Shown one piece after another: positions 2,735-12,130 of a DNA stretch of 13,017 nt. The stretch is from the NCBI GenBank assembly GCA_937128575.1, contig CAKZMN010000077.1, forward strand, positions 1 through 13,017, written 5' to 3'. A program made the translations under genes and the position numbers. Below the pieces are notes generated by a model, which was not told where the DNA came from, ran no database searches, and worked only from the letters and a program-made list of their open reading frames with translations. The stretch's first letter is position 1; each line of letters opens with the position of its first letter. The stretch comes from an uncultured Alphaproteobacteria bacterium. GTDB lineage: Bacteria; Pseudomonadota; Alphaproteobacteria; Micavibrionales; Micavibrionaceae.

Positions 2735-3124
2735 TTGCAGGATGCGTGCCAAATGGTTGATCAGTATGATGATGGACAAGAATTTGACGGGAAAAGTGGC
2801 CTAACCCCCTCAAATACAAAGAAAGTTCCCAAACGCAAGATTGCGGTTGCGCTGGATGATGGCGCAAGAAAAGGCGAGTTGCCGCGCATTACAGCGGCCG
2901 GACGGGGAAATATTGCCGAGAAGATACTGCAGCTTGCCTTCGATAATGGCATTCGTGTTCGTGAAGATAGTGATTTATCGGAGATGCTGGCGCAAATTGA
3001 GCTAGACAGCCCTATTCCGAGTGAAGCCTTTATGGCTGTTGCGGAGATTTTATCCTATGTTTATCGTGCAAATGGACAGCCGAATCCCTTTGATGCGGCA
3101 TTAGAAAGTGATAGTGATGAGTAA
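2735..3124 (+). CDS. fhlB: FhlB-type stand-alone homologue of the FlhB cytoplasmic C-terminal domain
   Basis: Small soluble protein (129 residues) matching the globular C-terminal domain of FlhB, the substrate-specificity switch of the export apparatus. After a variable polar leader (1-33), residues 34-113 follow the FlhB pattern: IAVALDD, then LPRITAAGRGNIAEKILQLA, FDNGIRVREDSDLSEMLAQI, a PIPSEAF loop and the terminal helix VAEILSYVYR. The Asn-Pro-Thr-His autocleavage loop that precedes the AVAL strand in FlhB is absent; the aligned residues are about Pro32-Lys33-Arg34-Lys35. It therefore cannot self-cleave as FlhB does. Homologues of this type (FhlB, FlhX, YlqH) occur elsewhere beside a full FlhB. 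The start is uncertain: TTG at 2735, with AGGGA 5 nt and AGAGG 11 nt upstream, or ATG at 2753. It heads the plus-strand operon and its end overlaps the next gene by 8 nt. Confidence 0.85.
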   Translation: MQDACQMVDQYDDGQEFDGKSGLTPSNTKKVPKRKIAVALDDGARKGELPRITAAGRGNIAEKILQLAFDNGIRVREDSDLSEMLAQIELDSPIPSEAFMAVAEILSYVYRANGQPNPFDAALESDSDE

Positions 3125-3380
3125 TGCGCAGCAGTTAGAAGTAAAGTTTGAGGAGTTAATCCGCTTTATTGATGATGCGTGCATTGCGGCGGGGCGCGGA
3201 AACTCCGTAAATATGGATAGTTTGGACCAAACGGTTGCACAGTTGCTTGCTAGAGTTAAGCGATCTGGCGGAGCGGCCGCGAGAGATATTCAGCCCGCAA
3301 TGGCGCGCATGATCTCTAAATTAGATGAATTAACGCAAATTTTAAGTGAACAAAAAAATGATAATGGAGCGCAAAACTGA
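3117..3380 (+). CDS. Small helical protein of unknown function in the fliO-fliP operon
   Basis: 87 residues from the ATG at 3117 (a GTG at 3108 in frame would add three residues). I do not recognise it by sequence. It lacks any membrane segment or signal peptide and looks all-helical. A helix at about 5-24 (LEVKFEELIRFIDDACIAAG) is followed by a break, a helix at about 34-50 (SLDQTVAQLLARVKRSG) and a third at 56-79 (ARDIQPAMARMISKLDELTQ). The size and helical hairpin look resemble flagellar export chaperones such as FlgN or FliT, but that is only a resemblance. It overlaps the FhlB gene by 8 nt and shares one base with fliO (TGATG), so it is translationally coupled to export-gate genes and most likely serves flagellar export. 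Confidence 0.7.
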   Translation: MSNAQQLEVKFEELIRFIDDACIAAGRGNSVNMDSLDQTVAQLLARVKRSGGAAARDIQPAMARMISKLDELTQILSEQKNDNGAQN

Positions 3381-4454: not shown

Positions 4455-7400
4455 TTAGTTTGATGGCGGCGTGGTTGTACGGTAATTCTCTAAAAACTCT
4501 GCAAACAAATCCGTTTCCGACACGATATTTAGCAGCGTATCGCGATCCGCTAAGGCCGCGCTTTGACGCGGGCGCGTGATTACATCAAAGACATTTGATT
4601 TATCGGTCTGCGCCATCAGGTCGGAATATTTTTCACGCATATTCGCCAGCGCAATGCGGTCGCCCGCTAGACTGAGTGCGACTGAGCGCTGCAATATAAG
4701 GGCGGTGTCTTTGCTCTCTAGGGGCCTAGTAAATGAGAAGTTACGATCTAAAATAACATCGCCTAGCGCCTCGCCTGCATCATCCCAATAGCCAGCGCCC
4801 CATGCAATATCTGCCTTCAAGCGGTTACTGTCTGTGCTTGCCTCTAGATCATTCAAAAGGGCAAGCGCCTGATCTGGTCGCCCTTGATCGGATAATGCGC
4901 GGGCGCGGAGCAATGACAACTCAGCAAAGCGCGCAGGTGATTGTGATTCCTCTGGCAGGGTTTGTAAAAACTTCACAGCCTTTTTCAAGGTCTCAATCGC
5001 ATCAGATGGGCGGCTATCGAGAAGCTCAATCGCGGAAAGTCTGACGGCCACGCGGTAGGCTTCGCTGCCGCTTAAACGGTGGTCAATTTGATATTTCAAA
5101 AGCTTTGATGCGCGTCCAAGCAGGTCGGCCTGCACTAAGCGCTCCGCTAGCATTTCAACAACCTTATTCCCGCGATCGCCAGGGGGAACTAGTTCGGTGA
5201 ATTGTTCATATAACGCTGTCGCATCGAGAGGAGAAACTTCGGCCAATTTATCGGTTAGGAATAGATCGGCAAATACATCGCTCATCTCGGCTGTGATTTT
5301 GCGGCTGAGCGGCGCGCCGACTGCGTAGGTGGCGGCGTCACGCATAATATTTAGGCCCTTGGCAAATTCGCCAGTATTGAAATAGGCATCACCTAGCCAA
5401 TAATTAATTTGCGACTCTAGCTCATCACCGCGCCATGCATAGCGCAGGCGCTCTAGGTTGTCGATCGCCTTTTGCGGCGTGATTTCCTTATTCTCCATTT
5501 GAAGGCGGGTTAGCGCCAAGCCAGCCTTGGCGCGATATAAATCGTCACTGCCGGTTACAAGCTCACCCCATAATTTTTTGGTAGTTTCAGTCTTGCCCTT
5601 TTGACGCGCTGCCTCGCCCTTTAAGTAAGCGTAGGCCGCTTTTTGTGGGTCCCATAATGTATCTTCTTGATCATCAAGACGCTTGAACAGGCCTTCCGCT
5701 TGCTTCACATTTCCTGCGCGCAGAGCAACCTCCGCCAGCGTAAGCGCCAAGCGGTTATAGAGATATTGAGGATATTCCTGAAGAGCGCTTAAGTTTGCTG
5801 GCAAGACTTCCTCGGCCTGTTGCCAGTCCCCTAGATCAGCCAAGGTAAAGGCGCGCCAATAGCCAATATCTTCATAAGATTTCAAATCATCATGAGATAA
5901 TTGCAGGAAGGCCGCCTCGCTTTTTGACACGATGGCTTTCGCGACAGCGTAGAGTGCGCGGAATTCAGGATTTTCTTCAATGCCGGGCATTAGATCTTGC
6001 GCTAGCTTAAGAAAACCAAGTGCTTCCGGCCCTAGGCCGTTGGCGAAATGCATTTTCCCAAGACCGATTATATTCTCAACTTTTTTACCGTCAGGCAGGC
6101 CGTTCATGGAACTGAGGATGACATTGCGGTTGCCCTCAAGCGCATCTAAACCGCCCATTTCCCAGTTTTTAAAGTCGAATAATTGTTCGCCTGCGGCCAC
6201 ATTATTTTCTTCGCTATTTGCCGCAGTTCTTTGGCGCGCCATGGCCGCCTGCACTTGAGCCTCAGACGTTAAAGCTAAGCCACCGGGGCGTGAAACCTCG
6301 ACGCCAGCTTCGGTTATTTCCACCTTTAAATCATCGACCTTGGGCATAATCGCCATACCGATGGAGGATGGAAGAACCTTGAAATCAACAAAATCCATTG
6401 CGGTGCCCGATAGCTCCTCACCGTTTTCAACAGAAACCACCATTAGAGAAGCACCGGTTATAGGATCAGACATACTTACGACTTTGCGCGCAGTTTTAAA
6501 GGGCCATATAATTTTTCCGCCGCGAGAATCCCCGCGGACGACGTCTTTGCGCACAGGCTTAACGGCCAGATCTTTAGCTGAGTCTTTTGTTGAGATAACA
6601 ACGCGCCATAATAAACCGCCGCCTTCACCGCGAACATTATAGCCCTTGAGGGCATTGGCCTTGAAGGCTGTGCCGCCGTCAATTTCAACGGGCTCTATTG
6701 GATTGATTTTATCTTTGTCTGGGCCGCTGGCCTGCGGCGCGAGGCTGAGTGATGGTTGATCATTCACAAGCCATAGCGCGTCATTGATTTGAAAGGCCGC
6801 CATGCCGAAAGACTTGATTGAAGAAATAGAAATCAAGTTTGATATAACTGCGTCTTCTTTGGATATTTTTTTAACCTCCAGTTTTTCTACTGGCTGAGCG
6901 GGTACGTTAAGCGCGGATTGTGACGGCGCGGTGGGCTGCTCTGGCTTTTCTTCTTTTGCTTCTTCTGGTGCGGCTGCTTGTTGCTCGGGCTCGGGTTCTG
7001 CTTTTGGCTCTGGAGTCGCAGGCTTTGGCTTTTCAACGGGAGGCTGCGGTTTGGGCGCCGGGGCTTGCGCAACTTGCTGCGATGGTTTTTTTGCGCCGGG
7101 TGAATTGTATATGTCGACGACCAGGCGATTTCCGGCAAAAAAGGCGCGGGTGCGGCTGTCTGATGGGACATTTACAGAAACGGTTAAGGGCGTTTCGTCT
7201 GTGACTTTGAAGTTAGAAAAATTACGCAGCGGCTTTGCGTCTGATGGGTTGCTAATTTTTGCATTATTTTCAAACTGAATAACCAGTGCGCCGGGCGTGG
7301 ATTTATCGATTTTATATTTAACCGTTTTATTCCAATCAAATACTAGGCGCGAATATTCTTTATGCTCCCCCGTGCGCACACGCAGAGAATCTTGCGCAAA

Positions 7401-7460
7401 AGCGGGCTGCGCAAAAAATAGAACCATAAAAACGCTGTAGTAAATGAAGCGATAGACCAT
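4455..7460 (-). CDS. Large periplasmic AMIN-like/TPR protein at the end of the stator operon
   Basis: 1001 residues from the ATG at 7460, chosen because it gives a clean signal peptide (1-22, hydrophobic core YYSVFMVLFFAQPAFA, cleavage AFA|Q). Longer in-frame starts at 7484 (ATG) and 7496 (TTG) would put polar residues ahead of it. No start has a good Shine-Dalgarno. Domains: an AMIN-like beta domain at about 24-118 (EYSRLVFDW, TPGALVIQF and AFFAGNRLVVDIY strands); a Pro/Glu/Ala/Lys linker at 121-190; a beta-rich unknown region at about 200-395; then a long alpha-solenoid of degenerate TPR-like helix pairs from about 455 to 985. It is exported and probably periplasmic, where AMIN domains often bind peptidoglycan or envelope partners. 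As the last gene after motB, 81 bp downstream of it, a role in the motor periphery is likely; S. meliloti MotC (periplasmic, MotE-chaperoned) is a functional analogy only. No catalytic motif is visible. Confidence 0.8.
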   Translation of the reverse strand: MVYRFIYYSVFMVLFFAQPAFAQDSLRVRTGEHKEYSRLVFDWNKTVKYKIDKSTPGALVIQFENNAKISNPSDAKPLRNFSNFKVTDETPLTVSVNVPSDSRTRAFFAGNRLVVDIYNSPGAKKPSQQVAQAPAPKPQPPVEKPKPATPEPKAEPEPEQQAAAPEEAKEEKPEQPTAPSQSALNVPAQPVEKLEVKKISKEDAVISNLISISSIKSFGMAAFQINDALWLVNDQPSLSLAPQASGPDKDKINPIEPVEIDGGTAFKANALKGYNVRGEGGGLLWRVVISTKDSAKDLAVKPVRKDVVRGDSRGGKIIWPFKTARKVVSMSDPITGASLMVVSVENGEELSGTAMDFVDFKVLPSSIGMAIMPKVDDLKVEITEAGVEVSRPGGLALTSEAQVQAAMARQRTAANSEENNVAAGEQLFDFKNWEMGGLDALEGNRNVILSSMNGLPDGKKVENIIGLGKMHFANGLGPEALGFLKLAQDLMPGIEENPEFRALYAVAKAIVSKSEAAFLQLSHDDLKSYEDIGYWRAFTLADLGDWQQAEEVLPANLSALQEYPQYLYNRLALTLAEVALRAGNVKQAEGLFKRLDDQEDTLWDPQKAAYAYLKGEAARQKGKTETTKKLWGELVTGSDDLYRAKAGLALTRLQMENKEITPQKAIDNLERLRYAWRGDELESQINYWLGDAYFNTGEFAKGLNIMRDAATYAVGAPLSRKITAEMSDVFADLFLTDKLAEVSPLDATALYEQFTELVPPGDRGNKVVEMLAERLVQADLLGRASKLLKYQIDHRLSGSEAYRVAVRLSAIELLDSRPSDAIETLKKAVKFLQTLPEESQSPARFAELSLLRARALSDQGRPDQALALLNDLEASTDSNRLKADIAWGAGYWDDAGEALGDVILDRNFSFTRPLESKDTALILQRSVALSLAGDRIALANMREKYSDLMAQTDKSNVFDVITRPRQSAALADRDTLLNIVSETDLFAEFLENYRTTTPPSN

Positions 7461-7541
7461 ATATTTTACCGTGCCACAGGGCATAAAAAAGGACAAGAAG
7501 TCATGACGTATGGCGGGCGCTTTATCCCGCTTTAACCAGCA

Positions 7542-8348
7542 TTAAAACGGCGTTTTTTTCGTGCCGTCATCTTGCATAATAACGATATCAACGCGGCGGG
7601 ATAAATTTAAGCGCTCTTCCTGCGGCATATCTTCTGATAATTGATCGTAACGGGCGCTCGATAGGCCGCGCACAACGGCCCCTCTTTCATAGCCTACATC
7701 ACGCAAAACCGCCGCGACCTGCGCCGCGCGCGCTAGCGAAAGCTCCCAATTTGAAGAAAAGCTTCCGCCTTCATTTTCAACGGGGCGTGGATCGGCGTGT
7801 CCAATTATTTCTATGCGGTTGCGGATGCGCGATAATGGGCCGCCCAGCGCGAATAAAGCGCGCTTACCTTCTGCGCCGACCTCCGATTGCCCGCTTTCGA
7901 ATAAAAGCTCGCTAGGTAGAGAAATTATGAGGCGCTGTTTTTGCGGGATTATTACAATATTTTCAAGGCGTTCGTTGTCGGCGATTAATTCCGTGACCAA
8001 GGATTCGAGGTAATTCAAGTTAAGAGCGCGGCTCTGACTGAGGCGGCTAATATCTATAGCGTCCTGTGCGCCGCGGCTGTATTTTGGCCCCTGTGACTGA
8101 CTTACGCCTTTACTAAGACCCGTTGTCAGCTCTTCCCATTTTTCCTCTAGCGGGACAGACATGGAATAGAGCAAAACAAAGAATGTCAGCATCAGCGCCA
8201 TAATATCTGTAAATGTTACTAGCCATAATGGAACGGTTTCTTCCCCGTCCCCATTACCGGATGAGCGCGCGCCGAAGCTAAAGAAGGACACTGGGGTCTC
8301 AACTTCTTTTTCTTCTGCATCTTCTTTTTCGTTTTCTTTGTTCGTCAT
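7542..8348 (-). CDS. motB: MotB, flagellar stator protein with OmpA-like peptidoglycan-binding domain
   Basis: Stator subunit that, with MotA (not in this window), conducts ions and is anchored to peptidoglycan. It has 268 residues. The acidic cytoplasmic N-terminus is about 40 residues long. The single membrane helix starts WLVTFTDIMALMLTFFVLLY at 42-61; Asp48 corresponds to the essential proton-binding Asp (Asp32 in E. coli). A plug-like amphipathic stretch follows at about 65-80. The OmpA/MotB domain at about 135-257 has the LLFESGQSEV entry, GHAD at 183-186, NWELSLARA at 200-208 and RRVDIVI at 251-257, i.e. the peptidoglycan-binding residues are intact. It starts only 3 bp after the stop of the degenerate MotB-like gene, with GGTGAG 6 nt upstream, so the two are probably translated in tandem. 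It looks functional. Confidence 0.95.
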   Translation of the reverse strand: MTNKENEKEDAEEKEVETPVSFFSFGARSSGNGDGEETVPLWLVTFTDIMALMLTFFVLLYSMSVPLEEKWEELTTGLSKGVSQSQGPKYSRGAQDAIDISRLSQSRALNLNYLESLVTELIADNERLENIVIIPQKQRLIISLPSELLFESGQSEVGAEGKRALFALGGPLSRIRNRIEIIGHADPRPVENEGGSFSSNWELSLARAAQVAAVLRDVGYERGAVVRGLSSARYDQLSEDMPQEERLNLSRRVDIVIMQDDGTKKTPF

Positions 8349-8351
8349 TTT

Positions 8352-8990
8352 TTACTCACCACGCGCGCCTAAGGGATTAAAGGGTTGGTAGCGTTTGAAA
8401 AATAAATCTACGGTCTTTTCCGGCCCCTTACCCAAGCCCGCACTTATGAATTTTTTCGGCAAGCCAATATCTTCGATTGTTTTGGCATAGCCAGATACAC
8501 GCTTGATATTTTTTATGGAGTCTTGTGGGGTATCCCCCTGAAGAGCCGCCGGATTTTGAGTTAAGTTCAGGATAATTTCAAGGCTGTAGGCCACCTGATC
8601 CTCAGCCAGCAATAATGAAACCAGCGTTGGCGTTAAATTACCTGCGGCGCGACCATCGGCGCCAGAGATTTGCGCTTCAAATTTATCGACAGGGATGCGC
8701 ATATGCATTGTTGTGCCTAAGCGGTTTTTTTGCACCTCTACGCCCGCAATTTGAGTTTCGAATAATTCTTTTAATTGATCGAGCGTATTGCCCTTCGCAG
8801 CAGACTCTACGGGGTCTGGCTTTACGCTGGCAGATAGATCATTGGGGACATTTTCTTTGGAAAAAGCGACGGACAGGCTAGTTAAAACTTCACGCGCCTT
8901 TATGACTTCGAAATTCGACATCGAATTCAAAATAATAAAAAACGAAAGCAGCATTACAAATAATGCTAAAGCGAGAAATTGGTTGGCCAT
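8352..8990 (-). CDS. Degenerate MotB-like membrane protein lacking the proton-binding Asp
   Basis: 212 residues, directly before motB. The N-terminal helix FLALALFVMLLSFFIILNSM (5-24) aligns without gaps to the MotB helix next door through the shared ending FF-x4-SMS, but the position of MotB Asp48 is Ala9, so this protein cannot conduct protons by the MotB mechanism. There is almost no cytoplasmic tail: the ATG at 8990 is the only ATG downstream of an in-frame stop. The C-terminal part (about 92-200) follows the OmpA-like order: IPVDKFEAQI, SLEIILNLTQ (aligned to MotB IEIIGHADP, with the binding Asp now Thr144), DSIKNIKRVSGYAKTIEDIG (aligned to NWELSLARA and following) and KTVDLFF. The fold seems kept while key binding residues are lost. 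It is probably an inner-membrane, periplasm-facing partner of MotB; it could instead be a general motor scaffold protein. Confidence 0.8.
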   Translation of the reverse strand: MANQFLALALFVMLLSFFIILNSMSNFEVIKAREVLTSLSVAFSKENVPNDLSASVKPDPVESAAKGNTLDQLKELFETQIAGVEVQKNRLGTTMHMRIPVDKFEAQISGADGRAAGNLTPTLVSLLLAEDQVAYSLEIILNLTQNPAALQGDTPQDSIKNIKRVSGYAKTIEDIGLPKKFISAGLGKGPEKTVDLFFKRYQPFNPLGARGE

Positions 8991-9047: not shown

Positions 9048-9743
9048 TTAATTACCTTGAGGAAGGGATGGTAGAGTTTTTTGCTCCGCCAGCATAATGG
9101 TGATGGTACGCGCGCGCTCTGGGTTCATCGCCGCCATGACAGGAGATAGTTTGCGCTCCGACATTTTGGATACGACAGCCGCCAAAATGTCGAGATCCAA
9201 TGTATCAAAAATACGCGCCGCATCTTTGGGCTTCATACCTTCGTAAATTTTAACAAGGCTTCTTATGCGCGATAACTCCTCTTCGGATTGCTCCTGAAGC
9301 AGCCCTTCAATTTCACCGCGCAGCTGTGATAGCTCCTGATATTTACGATCCAGTTCCTGCTCAGCCGCTTTTAACAAGGCTTCCCGCGTGGTCAATGCGC
9401 GCTCTTTGGCTTCGATTTCTTTGCGGCGTTTGGACAGATCCTTGAACACATCCATGCGCACCGCTTCATAGGCCGGATCATCATCAACGGGGTCGCGCCA
9501 CTCTGGCTCATCCATAGCCTCTTCCTCAGCCATCTCGCCGTCTTCTTCGCTCGTCGCTTCAGCGTCAGTCATTTCCATGGATTCGTCTTTTGCAGCTTCC
9601 GTCATTTCATCTTTTGCGGCAGGGCTTTCGGCCTGCGCAGAGCCAGACAAGGTGGATACACCAGACACCACATCAACAAGACGCACGGAAAATGACAAAA
9701 GCGCCACGGCAACCAATAAGGGTATGACTTTAAAGTCTTTCAT
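9048..9743 (-). CDS. motE: MotE-like flagellar accessory protein (MgtE-N/FliG-like fold)
   Basis: 231 residues. An N-terminal hydrophobic segment (about 6-27, VIPLLVAVALLSFSVRLVDV) is a signal peptide or anchor. Then comes a very acidic, Met-rich low-complexity region (about 39-90), a long coiled coil (about 98-155, RRKEIEAKERALTTREALLK and onward) and a compact C-terminal helical domain (156-225). That domain has the MotE/MgtE N-terminal pattern: LVKIYEGMKPKDAARIFDTL, LAAVVSKMSERKLSPVMAAM and NPERARTITIML. In Sinorhizobium meliloti MotE is a periplasmic chaperone for the motility protein MotC; family members are common in alphaproteobacterial flagellar clusters. Its place between the switch gene block and the motB genes fits a stator-associated role. 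Shine-Dalgarno is poor (AGGAT about 12 nt upstream). The exact function here is inferred. Confidence 0.85.
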   Translation of the reverse strand: MKDFKVIPLLVAVALLSFSVRLVDVVSGVSTLSGSAQAESPAAKDEMTEAAKDESMEMTDAEATSEEDGEMAEEEAMDEPEWRDPVDDDPAYEAVRMDVFKDLSKRRKEIEAKERALTTREALLKAAEQELDRKYQELSQLRGEIEGLLQEQSEEELSRIRSLVKIYEGMKPKDAARIFDTLDLDILAAVVSKMSERKLSPVMAAMNPERARTITIMLAEQKTLPSLPQGN

Positions 9744-9762: not shown

Positions 9763-10296
9763 TTAAGCTGATTTCTTTTTGTTGCGCTGCAGAGCTTCGA
9801 ATAGCTCTTTTTCAGCTTGGCTTTGGAATTTTTTGCCGCTGGCATCTGCTGCAGGCTCGTCAAATTCACGGTCTTGGATAGCGAAAGATGAGCCGCCAAT
9901 TTGATCACCTTCAAATTCGCCTTCATCGTCACCATAGGCGCTGTATTCCTGTGATGGCGCAGCCTGCCCCGATGTTGATGCCACGAGGCTTTCCAAACGA
10001 TTAGCCACATTATTACCGGATTGATTCATAATCTTGAGTTCATCAGCCAGTGTTTTGGCCTCTGCAATTTGTTTGTTTATATCGCCGCCAGAGCGATTGC
10101 TGGCTTCTTTTAATGAGGCAAGTGTTTCATAAGCATGTTCTATATTTTGGCTTAACTCTTCCATCAAAGCTTCAAATTCGCTGCGGTGACTGCGGAAATT
10201 ATCGAGACTTTTAGACAGCCTTAGAACAAAGTAAATCGTGGCGACTAGGCCGCTCATTACCAATACATCCATAAACAAACTCAGTGTTGTACTCAT
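9763..10296 (-). CDS. DUF6468-type membrane-anchored coiled-coil protein next to fliM
   Basis: 177 residues. One membrane helix at about 7-26 (LFMDVLVMSGLVATIYFVLR) is followed by a long helical, coiled-coil-like region at 30-108 (for example FRSHRSEFEALMEELSQNIE and QIAEAKTLADELKIMN). Next is an acidic, low-complexity linker and a conserved-looking C-terminal patch, SQAEKELFEALQRNKKK. This matches the layout of DUF6468 proteins that I recall beside fliM in Rhodospirillales-type flagellar clusters; their function is not known to me. The N-terminal helix is probably an inner-membrane anchor with a cytoplasmic coiled coil. The start codon overlaps the fliM stop by 4 nt (ATGA), implying translational coupling and a link to the switch complex. 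Confidence 0.8.
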   Translation of the reverse strand: MSTTLSLFMDVLVMSGLVATIYFVLRLSKSLDNFRSHRSEFEALMEELSQNIEHAYETLASLKEASNRSGGDINKQIAEAKTLADELKIMNQSGNNVANRLESLVASTSGQAAPSQEYSAYGDDEGEFEGDQIGGSSFAIQDREFDEPAADASGKKFQSQAEKELFEALQRNKKKSA

Positions 10297-11414
10297 TGAT
10301 CGTCATCTCTTTCTGGTGGCATGTAATCTTCGATGCGCACGGCAATATTGCCCTGCTTCTGACCAACCGGCCCTTTAAACATTGGGAAGTGACCACAACG
10401 CAATTCCAAATCATCTTCGGTGCGCGTGCTGAACATGATTTGCGACCCAATTTTCCAATTAAGCATATCGCCCAATGGCAAGATCAATTCACCCAATACA
10501 GCCTGAAGCTGGATATCGGTTTTGTGCAATTCTTGCGTCAAATGACTTTCCCAGATGGAGTCACGACCGAATTTTTCACCCATGAACATCTGAAGCAGCA
10601 ATTCACGAATGGGCTCGAGCGTGGCGTAGGGAATTAACACCTCAACGCGGCCGCCGCGATCACCCATATCAACGCGCAAACGGGCAAGCACACAAGCATT
10701 GCCGCTCTGCGTTATTGTTGCGAAGCGCGGGTTTGTTTCTAGGCGGTCTAGCGAAAAGCTGACCGGGGATAGTGGATCGAAAGCGGATGATAAATCAGCC
10801 AGCGTGACCGTCACCATTTTCTCAACCAGCTTGCTTTCAATCGTTGTATAGGGACGCCCTTCAACGCGGATAGATGGCGTGCCCTTACGACCGCCAAGCA
10901 AAACGTCCACGATGGAATAAATCAGCGCGCTGTCTGTTACGAGCAGGCCATTATTGTCCCATTCTTCTGCCTTAAACACAGAAAGCATTGCGGGAAGCGG
11001 AATTGAATTCATGTAATCGCCGAAGCGCACCGTGGATACCTGATCCAGAGACACCTCCACGTTATCGGTTGTTAGGTTACGAAGAGAGGTGGACATCAAG
11101 CGCACCAAACGGTCAAACACCACGTCCAACATAGGCAGGCGTTCGTAGTTCACCATCGCGGAATTAATAAGCGCCATCACACCGGAGGTTTCACTGCCGC
11201 CCATTTCGTCATCATCAAAGCCGAGAAGAGAGTCAATTTCTTCCTGGTTTAGAATGCGGGTTCCGCCGCCTTCATCATCCATACCATCATCGAAGTCAGG
11301 CATAGCGTCACCGACAGACGCAGCGTCATCGTCTGCCATGGACTCCCAATCGTCCATTTCAGCCTCTTTTCCTTCGCTCGTTTTCTCGAGCTCATCCGTA
11401 TCGGTATCGCTCAT
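10293..11414 (-). CDS. fliM: FliM, flagellar motor switch protein
   Basis: C-ring protein that receives CheY-P and controls rotation together with FliG and FliN (neither in the window). It has 373 residues from the ATG at 11414; AAAGG lies 7 nt upstream, and a TTG one codon earlier is less likely. The CheY-binding motif ILNQEEIDSLLGF is at 54-66, preceded by an acidic leader of about 50 residues that enterobacterial FliM lacks. The middle CheC-like domain (about 80-270) includes the LLGGRKG loop at 172-178, whose Gly-Gly-x/Arg motif contacts FliG. The C-terminal SpoA domain spans about 285-365 (IQLQAVLGELILPLGDMLNW, then ELRCGHFPMFKGPVGQKQGN). It lies 83 bp after fliL and overlaps the DUF6468 gene by 4 nt. 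It looks intact. Confidence 0.97.
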   Translation of the reverse strand: MSDTDTDELEKTSEGKEAEMDDWESMADDDAASVGDAMPDFDDGMDDEGGGTRILNQEEIDSLLGFDDDEMGGSETSGVMALINSAMVNYERLPMLDVVFDRLVRLMSTSLRNLTTDNVEVSLDQVSTVRFGDYMNSIPLPAMLSVFKAEEWDNNGLLVTDSALIYSIVDVLLGGRKGTPSIRVEGRPYTTIESKLVEKMVTVTLADLSSAFDPLSPVSFSLDRLETNPRFATITQSGNACVLARLRVDMGDRGGRVEVLIPYATLEPIRELLLQMFMGEKFGRDSIWESHLTQELHKTDIQLQAVLGELILPLGDMLNWKIGSQIMFSTRTEDDLELRCGHFPMFKGPVGQKQGNIAVRIEDYMPPERDDDQ

Positions 11415-11497
11415 CAACCTGCCTTTATTATCATTTTAAGCATCATTCGTCGCTTTCATATACGCAAGAACTATGCCGTTTATTTTTGATTATAGCA

Positions 11498-12130
11498 TTA
11501 TTGGATCAAAATTTCCTGAAACAATACATCTTTGACTTCCACGGGGGAGGCCTGATTAACGCGCCATAACAGCTCCATTTGCAATCTGTATATACCCGCA
11601 GACCCGCGCAAATCCTTAACTCTCAGCTCTCGCAAATATGTTTGAAACTGGTCAATAACGCGCGGAATCACGGCTTCAATTTCTGGTAATTCTGCTGGGT
11701 TTGCTAGCTCCAACTGAACGGTTAGGCGTAAATAGCGGGGGGTGCCGTCTTCGGTATTTAAATTCACAATCATTGTTGGGATAGCGAGGAACGCACCGCC
11801 CTCGCCGCCGTGACCATCACCGCCGCCATGGCCGTCGCCGCCTTTTTTCTTTGCGTGCTTGTCTTCTTTTTCTTCCTCTGGGCAGACCTCAACCGTTTCG
11901 CCGTGGTCATCAACATGCTGCTCACATTTAGAGCCGCCTAGAACACTATCCAGCATCCCCGTGAAATAGAGCCCGCCGCCAATACCAAGCAATAAAATGA
12001 TCGGAGCCACAACGAACATAATGATCTTTTTCGTATCAAGACCACCCTCTTCCTCATCGCCCTCTAATATATCTTCAGCGTCATCGGCGCCGCTTTCCAC
12101 TTCTTCTACTTGATCTTCTTCATCGGACAT
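11498..12130 (-). CDS. fliL: FliL, stator-associated basal-body membrane protein
   Basis: Inner-membrane protein that encircles or supports MotAB stators through a periplasmic stomatin-like domain. It has 210 residues, longer than enterobacterial FliL. There is a highly acidic cytoplasmic tail (1-31), a membrane helix at about 36-58 (IMFVVAPIILLLGIGGGLYF), an unusual linker (67-112), and a FliL domain at 113-210. The FliL domain has AIPTMIVNLN, RYLRLTVQLEL, VIPRVIDQFQTYLRELRVKD (typical of the family, with Arg-x-x-Asp-Leu-x-Gly-Ser following) and the terminal VKDVLFQEILIQ. The linker contains Cys69, Cys83 and His72, 76, 92, 101 and 107, ending in DGHGGGDGHGGEGG. It is the first gene of the minus-strand switch/stator operon, starting at the ATG at 12130 with little Shine-Dalgarno match. 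Confidence 0.96.
   Translation of the reverse strand: MSDEEDQVEEVESGADDAEDILEGDEEEGGLDTKKIIMFVVAPIILLLGIGGGLYFTGMLDSVLGGSKCEQHVDDHGETVEVCPEEEKEDKHAKKKGGDGHGGGDGHGGEGGAFLAIPTMIVNLNTEDGTPRYLRLTVQLELANPAELPEIEAVIPRVIDQFQTYLRELRVKDLRGSAGIYRLQMELLWRVNQASPVEVKDVLFQEILIQ

Follow-up and report, generated by a model that had tools for sequence, protein, structure and literature searches.

A diverged MotB paralogue encoded directly before motB suggests that many alphaproteobacterial flagellar motors are driven by lopsided stators with two different B subunits

To our knowledge, the solved 5:2 rotary motors (MotAB, PomAB, ExbBD, TolQR, GldLM and ZorAB) use a homodimeric axle. A published rotary scheme advances in 36-degree steps, one per ion, in the passages available from PMC9389320. 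Two B-type genes or proteins alongside one A partner have been described: excerpts of PMC4525482 and PMC4987623 report an Aquifex aeolicus operon, motA-motB1-motB2, with one motA and tandem motB genes, and for the gliding motor AglR-AglQ-AglS a heterodimer is raised as a possibility and called undecided in the available text of PMC9389320 and PMC9120999. Further motor components have been named in alphaproteobacteria, including the E-ring protein MotE (PMC13023049, in part) and MotK, a TPR/AMIN partner that binds MotB2 (PMC10954123, in part).

Here we analyze a flagellar locus from an uncultured member of the Alphaproteobacteria (GCA_937128575.1, contig CAKZMN010000077.1). The window, meaning the whole 13,017-nucleotide stretch of DNA analyzed, is a flagellar gene cluster whose minus-strand run reads fliL-fliM-DUF6468-motE-motB′-motB-motK, with MotB′ denoting the MotB paralogue of interest:

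11498..12130 (-), fliL, first gene of the run (NF009420, 1.5e-33, 115.8 bits, below the cut-off of 197)
10293..11417 (-), a gene that we take from its sequence to be fliM, upstream in the same strand run
9763..10296 (-), DUF6468 protein, between fliM and motE (PF20072, 2.5e-15)
9048..9743 (-), MotE-like protein of the E-ring family, a FlgY/FlbB relative (PF03448, 2.7e-5, 25.1 bits, just below the cut-off of 25.9)
8352..8990 (-), MotB′, the MotB paralogue, with Ala9 at the channel-Asp position of its transmembrane (TM) helix and an OmpA-like periplasmic domain without GHxD
7542..8348 (-), intact MotB with Asp48 and an OmpA domain, GHAD and NWELSLARA (PF13677, 1.2e-12; PF00691, 4.2e-7)
4455..7496 (-), MotK-like large TPR protein (TPR_19, 4.7e-11; weak AMIN-like N-terminus, 0.022, below cut-off)

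A single FliM match (9.4e-61) is found in the window genome. The MotE-like protein also matches NCBIfam FlbB below cut-off (3.6e-6), and its gene occupies the position given for motE in the accessible part of PMC10954123; architecture and position point to MotK for 4455..7496. Elsewhere in the window, 2735-3124 (+) encodes a free-standing protein whose similarity to FlhB is confined to the C-terminal region (PF01312 positions 260-335, 1.6e-13); we label it FlhX, and it is present in many syntenic loci. It is separate from an ORF at 1-327 with what is presumably an FlhB-like start, and a 90-residue ORF at 3108-3380 (+), between the FlhB-like piece and fliO, has no Pfam match at E<=1.

The ORF at 8352-8990 (-) is a full-length MotB homologue with a MotB-type membrane helix and an OmpA-like periplasmic fold. 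It encodes 212 residues and stops 3 bases ahead of motB (7542-8348, minus strand), the spacing noted in the original prediction, and the by-eye helix alignment of that prediction also holds: MotB′ and its neighbor match without gaps through FF and SMS, with Ala9 opposite Asp48. The GHxD...NxxLSxxRA peptidoglycan-binding motif is missing. By itself the window protein scores 16.7 bits against MotB_plug (PF13677), below the cut-off of 24; 107 proteins are related to it at E<=1e-3, and our first profile of the family (A1) matches at least 254. Family-level comparison with MotB/OmpA, which had been proposed as the check on homology, reveals the expected similarity, with matches to the MotB profile (E 1.6e-17 across 180 columns), to solved PomB (3.6e-9) and to Campylobacter MotB with most of the profile covered. 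The predicted model consists of one long helix, a poorly predicted linker at about residues 44-59 and an OmpA-like domain, and its best solved structural neighbors include the periplasmic domains of MotB, PomB and MotS. Profiles, model and the residue counts below thus confirm a MotB paralogue that lacks the proton-binding Asp and the peptidoglycan motif and sits beside an intact MotB. No FliL family matches the window MotB′ protein at E<=1 in Pfam or NCBIfam, and FliL is encoded separately at 11498-12130. Among the matches listed, source names of MotB′ relatives are mostly "hypothetical protein", the exceptions being two entries named "Motility protein B-like N-terminal" and one "flagellar motor protein MotB". 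Our search of the open-access literature found no description of the gene; a viral collection yielded no relative of the window MotB, and a plasmid collection no match to a distant MotB′ used as query.

MotB′ is a conserved gene of the class. The first search gave a match in 86 of 385 genomes of the class, tabulated as 87 loci (L003-L032 and L113-L169) with one genome contributing two; one match, L165 (G047), turned out to be a MotB of the ordinary kind next to MotA, which leaves 85 genomes. Profile A1 undercounts, as 17 pairs were found beyond it: 14 further genomes with divergent pairs came from 20 MotB-led loci and three from later loci, with weak paralogue matches in L175 (37 bits), L262 (41 bits) and L176, whose best-matching stretch falls outside the helix. 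The remaining six MotB-led loci were set aside, comprising one in a genome already counted (L188), four with ordinary motA-motB or none (L181, L182, L183 and L187) and one at a contig end (L174). MotB′ therefore occurs in about 102 of 385 genomes, a few on weak matches, and FliM in 213, so that roughly half of the sampled flagellated genomes of the class carry it. The broad profile A5 also matches ordinary OmpA/MotB proteins (66/74 and 284/299 genomes), and for that reason its tallies are not counts of MotB′.

Gene order is nearly invariant. We read order alone from the best 80 of 112 loci in a named collection, where the peptide pattern used fixes Ser, Ala or Gly at the Asp site; these loci come from Micavibrio and other alphaproteobacterial metagenome-assembled genomes, Thalassospira, Sneathiella, Kordiimonas and Pseudokordiimonas. 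The usual order is motE > motB′ > motB > motK, with motB′ directly upstream of an Asp-bearing motB: among these best 80 of 112, paralogue precedes MotB in 80/80, MotE precedes the paralogue in 71/80 and a MotK-like gene follows MotB in 77/80. Across the class set and the best 80 of 112 named loci together, both genes are present at 164 loci, and at 163 of these they share a strand, paralogue first, with frames <=150 bases apart; the two sets may overlap, and at least one locus is counted twice, L003 and L095 being apparently one genome. The exception within the 164 is L144, where the paralogue and motB are both broken frames; the MotA_N match of its genome (G300) is also split. Co-occurrence with motB across the class was another anticipated feature and is found, with one true exception to adjacency in L167, where about 6 kb separate the paralogue from a motB on the opposite strand. 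Three divergent pairs (L184, L185 and L186) have TFM rather than FF in the TM helix and no other flagellar query gene found nearby; the frame upstream in L184 is presumably dnaX-like. Near-universal tandem order favors a mixed axle formed by one copy of each protein. The place after motE (71/80 of the best 80 of 112 named loci) is also what would be expected if MotB′ instead served the stator as an accessory from outside the ring of A subunits, acting as a periplasmic linker, anchored in the membrane, that binds MotE/MotK and recruits or opens MotA-MotB2 units as MotF or FliL do, a reading we regard as rather unlikely. It draws on Cereibacter, where MotE and MotK bind MotB2 and are required for rotation (PMC10954123, in part) and where MotF is a 24 kDa protein with one TM helix that is bypassed by MotB plug mutations (PMC7277832, in part).

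We next consider the Asp column in 84 readable paralogues from across the class, a set collected without constraint on the residue at this site and from which L144 (broken frames) and L153 (fragment) were excluded, as they were from the tree. Paralogues carry Ser (47), Gly (23), Ala (10), Asp (3) or Asn (1), and their partner MotBs carry Asp in 84/84. Within the peptidoglycan motif of the same 84 proteins the H column is mostly a gap, the Asp column holds D in 11 and Arg is retained in 72. The expectation of a fixed non-acidic residue thus stands for 81/84 class paralogues and fails for three with Asp, as it does for the 22 of 25 first B proteins with Glu outside the class. In the three class paralogues with Asp (L161, L166 and L168) the periplasmic domain is of the paralogue type and lacks GHxD. 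They do not form one group: two have genes with Ser as their sisters (support 96 and 91), and the third lies near the base of the tree; their scatter among Asp-less relatives makes Asp-lessness the rule in the class, not an absolute. Asp in 3/84 MotB′ suggests that this site has kept channel-like surroundings. Gene conversion as the origin of the three Asp-bearing helices is not supported over other donors, as TM identity to their own MotB was not the best. The assignment of L168 is close (72.6 bits as paralogue, 70.3 as MotB), and its MotB partner itself lacks GHxD. In a tree built by a quick method with the TM helix excluded, all 84 paralogues fall on one side of a branch from 31 MotBs (support 99), for which one old duplication suffices. 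A decaying, functionless motB duplicate would account for the two lost motifs and for the broken frames of L144; set against this are open frames and a conserved TM helix across a deep clade and a tree that needs one origin only, and we give the idea almost no credence.

The A-subunit of the system appears to be encoded elsewhere. In the window genome (84% complete) an A-subunit gene on another contig (L002) is flanked by fliN and flbD, and this fliN-linked A-subunit is found at E<=1e-50 in 48 of 50 MotB′ bearers (45 of the 86 plus five named genomes, one of which is apparently identical to another); the exceptions are G059, with a weak A-subunit match, and G122, which has the pair but no A-subunit match. 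Among 74 flagellated genomes unmatched in the first MotB′ search, a hand-made list of FliM-positive presumed non-bearers, not all such genomes, compiled before the A-subunit search, four carry it, and two of these later proved to be bearers (L248 and L249). Raw counts of 48/50 and 4/74 give a Fisher p of 5e-27, a value that ignores relatedness. All 30 A-subunit loci read, two of them apparently from one genome, place the gene between fliN and flbD, with no adjoining motB (fliH-fliN-motA-flbD). By comparison, in 17 of 19 weaker A-type loci in the 74 (L228-L246) the A gene adjoins a MotB gene; linkage to fliN is seen in the remaining two, and the genome of one of them (G233) carries the weakly matching pair L262. 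Operon neighbors and co-occurrence also fit an accessory MotB′, which explains the operon equally well.

A separate MotA_N-type motA is present in 70 of 79 bearers, so the MotB′-MotB pair is often not the sole stator, and a MotB_plug gene adjoins this motA in 5/7 named genomes; bearers with both the second motA and the adjoining gene are probably two-stator organisms. The Thalassospira genomes of loci L101, L102 and L105 hold several stator-like systems besides the MotB′-MotB pair: each has five MotB_plug matches, of which one adjoins a MotA_N-type motA and one adjoins another, weakly matching MotA-like gene. An earlier notion of one MotA per genome, from a MotA_N search (PF20560), was dropped, as PF20560 misses the fliN-linked A-subunit of the window genome.

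TM helices are equally conserved in MotB′ and MotB (1.31 bits in both), and the rest of the protein varies more in MotB′ (2.93 vs 2.59 bits). Consensus identity between the two is 10/17 columns in the TM helix and 41/162 elsewhere; their TM entropy profiles show no significant correlation (rho 0.26, p 0.32). MotB′ retains Phe in 83/84 at each FF position and a small residue at the Asp site in 80/84, whereas Trp at D-6, found in 84/84 MotBs, is absent. A more variable periplasmic domain agrees with an accessory role; a helix outside the ring, however, would have no need to retain the MotB TM pattern. In E. coli, the residues A31, M34, M38, F41 and W45 form the contact between paired MotB helices, corresponding to D-1, +2, +6, +9 and +13 (PMC10659934, in the portion available). 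At three of these five positions residue sizes are swapped between MotB′ and MotB, with mean volumes of 160 vs 102 at D-1 (large vs small), 188 vs 146 at D+2 (aromatic vs aliphatic) and 119 vs 188 at D+13 (Asn/Thr vs aromatic), and in 68 of 82 genomes packing is most even for mixed MotB-MotB′ pairs. The published register is the strongest of seven, with one other near (0.67 vs 0.71). Divergence is not significantly greater in the interface set than at other TM positions (p 0.30), D+3 outside the set diverges too, and the partners covary in size with mixed sign (negative at +3 and +6, positive at -1 and +2), the shuffles used ignoring relatedness; the size-swap pattern is for these reasons only a hint. 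The same data bear on a further alternative in which MotB′ forms its own A5-MotB′2 or dead mixed complexes, which would compete with A5-MotB2 and adjust the number of stators as a reserve or brake without activity of their own. The acid is absent at the site in 81/84 paralogues, tandem genes could keep a fixed ratio, and in AglR-AglQ-AglS a single A protein has two partners of the B type (PMC9120999 and PMC9389320, in part), yet homotypic interfaces pack less evenly than mixed ones and wide retention beside motB exceeds, in our judgement, what a dispensable brake would lead one to expect. We consider a brake improbable.

Tandem B genes also occur outside the class. We read 35 loci (L273-L307) from other branches of the phylum, drawn from best matches and our own choice, a non-random sample from a handful of families, and found two tandem B genes in 25 and a single MotB beside MotA in the other ten. 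The tandems stand directly behind motA in 24/25, one being cut by a contig end, and a FliL match follows in 22/25. At the Asp site the first B has Glu in 22, Gln in 1 and Asp in 2, and the second has Asp in 25/25; first Bs of the Glu/Gln type mostly retain GHTD and NWELSAARA. These first Bs and class MotB′ do not group in the tree, whose deep branches are weak. Tandem B genes may have more than one origin, an Asp-less type with Ser, Gly or Ala belonging to alphaproteobacteria and a type with Glu or Gln behind a single motA to another branch of the phylum. In two loci from two other families of the phylum (L294 and L295, motA then two motB), both Bs bear Asp and have almost identical TM helices, resembling Aquifex. 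Together with the published Aquifex operon, these tandems show that one motA with two B genes is a recurrent arrangement. No match to the window MotE lies beside the out-of-class tandem Bs in the loci read, and B genes placed directly behind motA without it speak against a role tied to MotE outside the A ring.

On balance, and with moderate confidence, we think that MotB′ is the second, diverged B subunit of the flagellar stator, most likely in a MotA5-MotB-MotB′ unit with one ion site, a reading favored by the co-occurring A-subunit, the motA-B-B operons elsewhere and MotB-like TM conservation. Of the three roles first offered for MotB′ (heterodimer with MotB, plug or regulator, structural ring protein), these features and the gene order favor the heterodimer, and the proposal as a whole is partly supported. 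Within five fliN-linked A subunits arranged as a ring, one MotB and one MotB′ would associate by their TM helices, so that MotA5-MotB-MotB′ would replace MotA5-MotB2. Of the two, MotB alone has the Asp that binds the ion and an intact wall-anchor motif; MotB′ would complete the axle and add a periplasmic domain of different shape, which perhaps docks the stator to a MotE/MotK periplasmic scaffold, its gene lying between motE and motK. With one ion site, each ion would drive 72 degrees and a turn would take five ions rather than ten. The broader picture, which we hold as plausible but a little short of probable, is an ancient and widespread hetero-stator with two different Bs, one of them ion-conducting, at half the ion cost per turn and 72 degrees per ion, with tandem Bs possibly of more than one origin dividing ion conduction, axle and wall anchoring. 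If true, a natural one-Asp axle would test the need for both ion sites, the number of ions per turn and 36- versus 72-degree steps; a gene mostly called hypothetical among the source records listed would then have a function, and MotE/MotK a partner.

Compared with canonical MotB and PomB, MotB′ has the same TM pattern and OmpA-like fold and differs in lacking the channel Asp (81/84) and GHxD and in being accompanied by a second, Asp-bearing MotB. MotF of Cereibacter and Rhizobiaceae is likewise a membrane-anchored periplasmic protein needed for rotation or motility (PMC7277832, PMC9812332), and Cereibacter MotF shares one TM helix and a similar size with MotB′ (PMC7277832); as described in the accessible parts of these papers, a TM helix at residues 54-74 in Cereibacter and membership of the FliL superfamily in Rhizobiaceae set MotF apart. 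The Myxococcus gliding motor AglR-AglQ-AglS similarly combines one MotA homologue with two MotB homologues (PMC9389320, PMC9120999, both in part) but serves gliding, not flagella. Aquifex has two tandem motB genes whose products, like MotB′ and MotB, differ strongly in their periplasmic regions (23% identity); in contrast to our pair, the TM and N-terminal regions of the Aquifex proteins are 97% identical, so both presumably carry the Asp, and either one, as a chimera in E. coli, functioned with MotA on its own (PMC4525482 and PMC4987623, in the text available). In the class, the first B has lost the Asp and the A-subunit gene lies apart, at fliN (30/30 loci), not directly before the Bs. The precedent for the MotB′ system is Aquifex motA-motB1-motB2.
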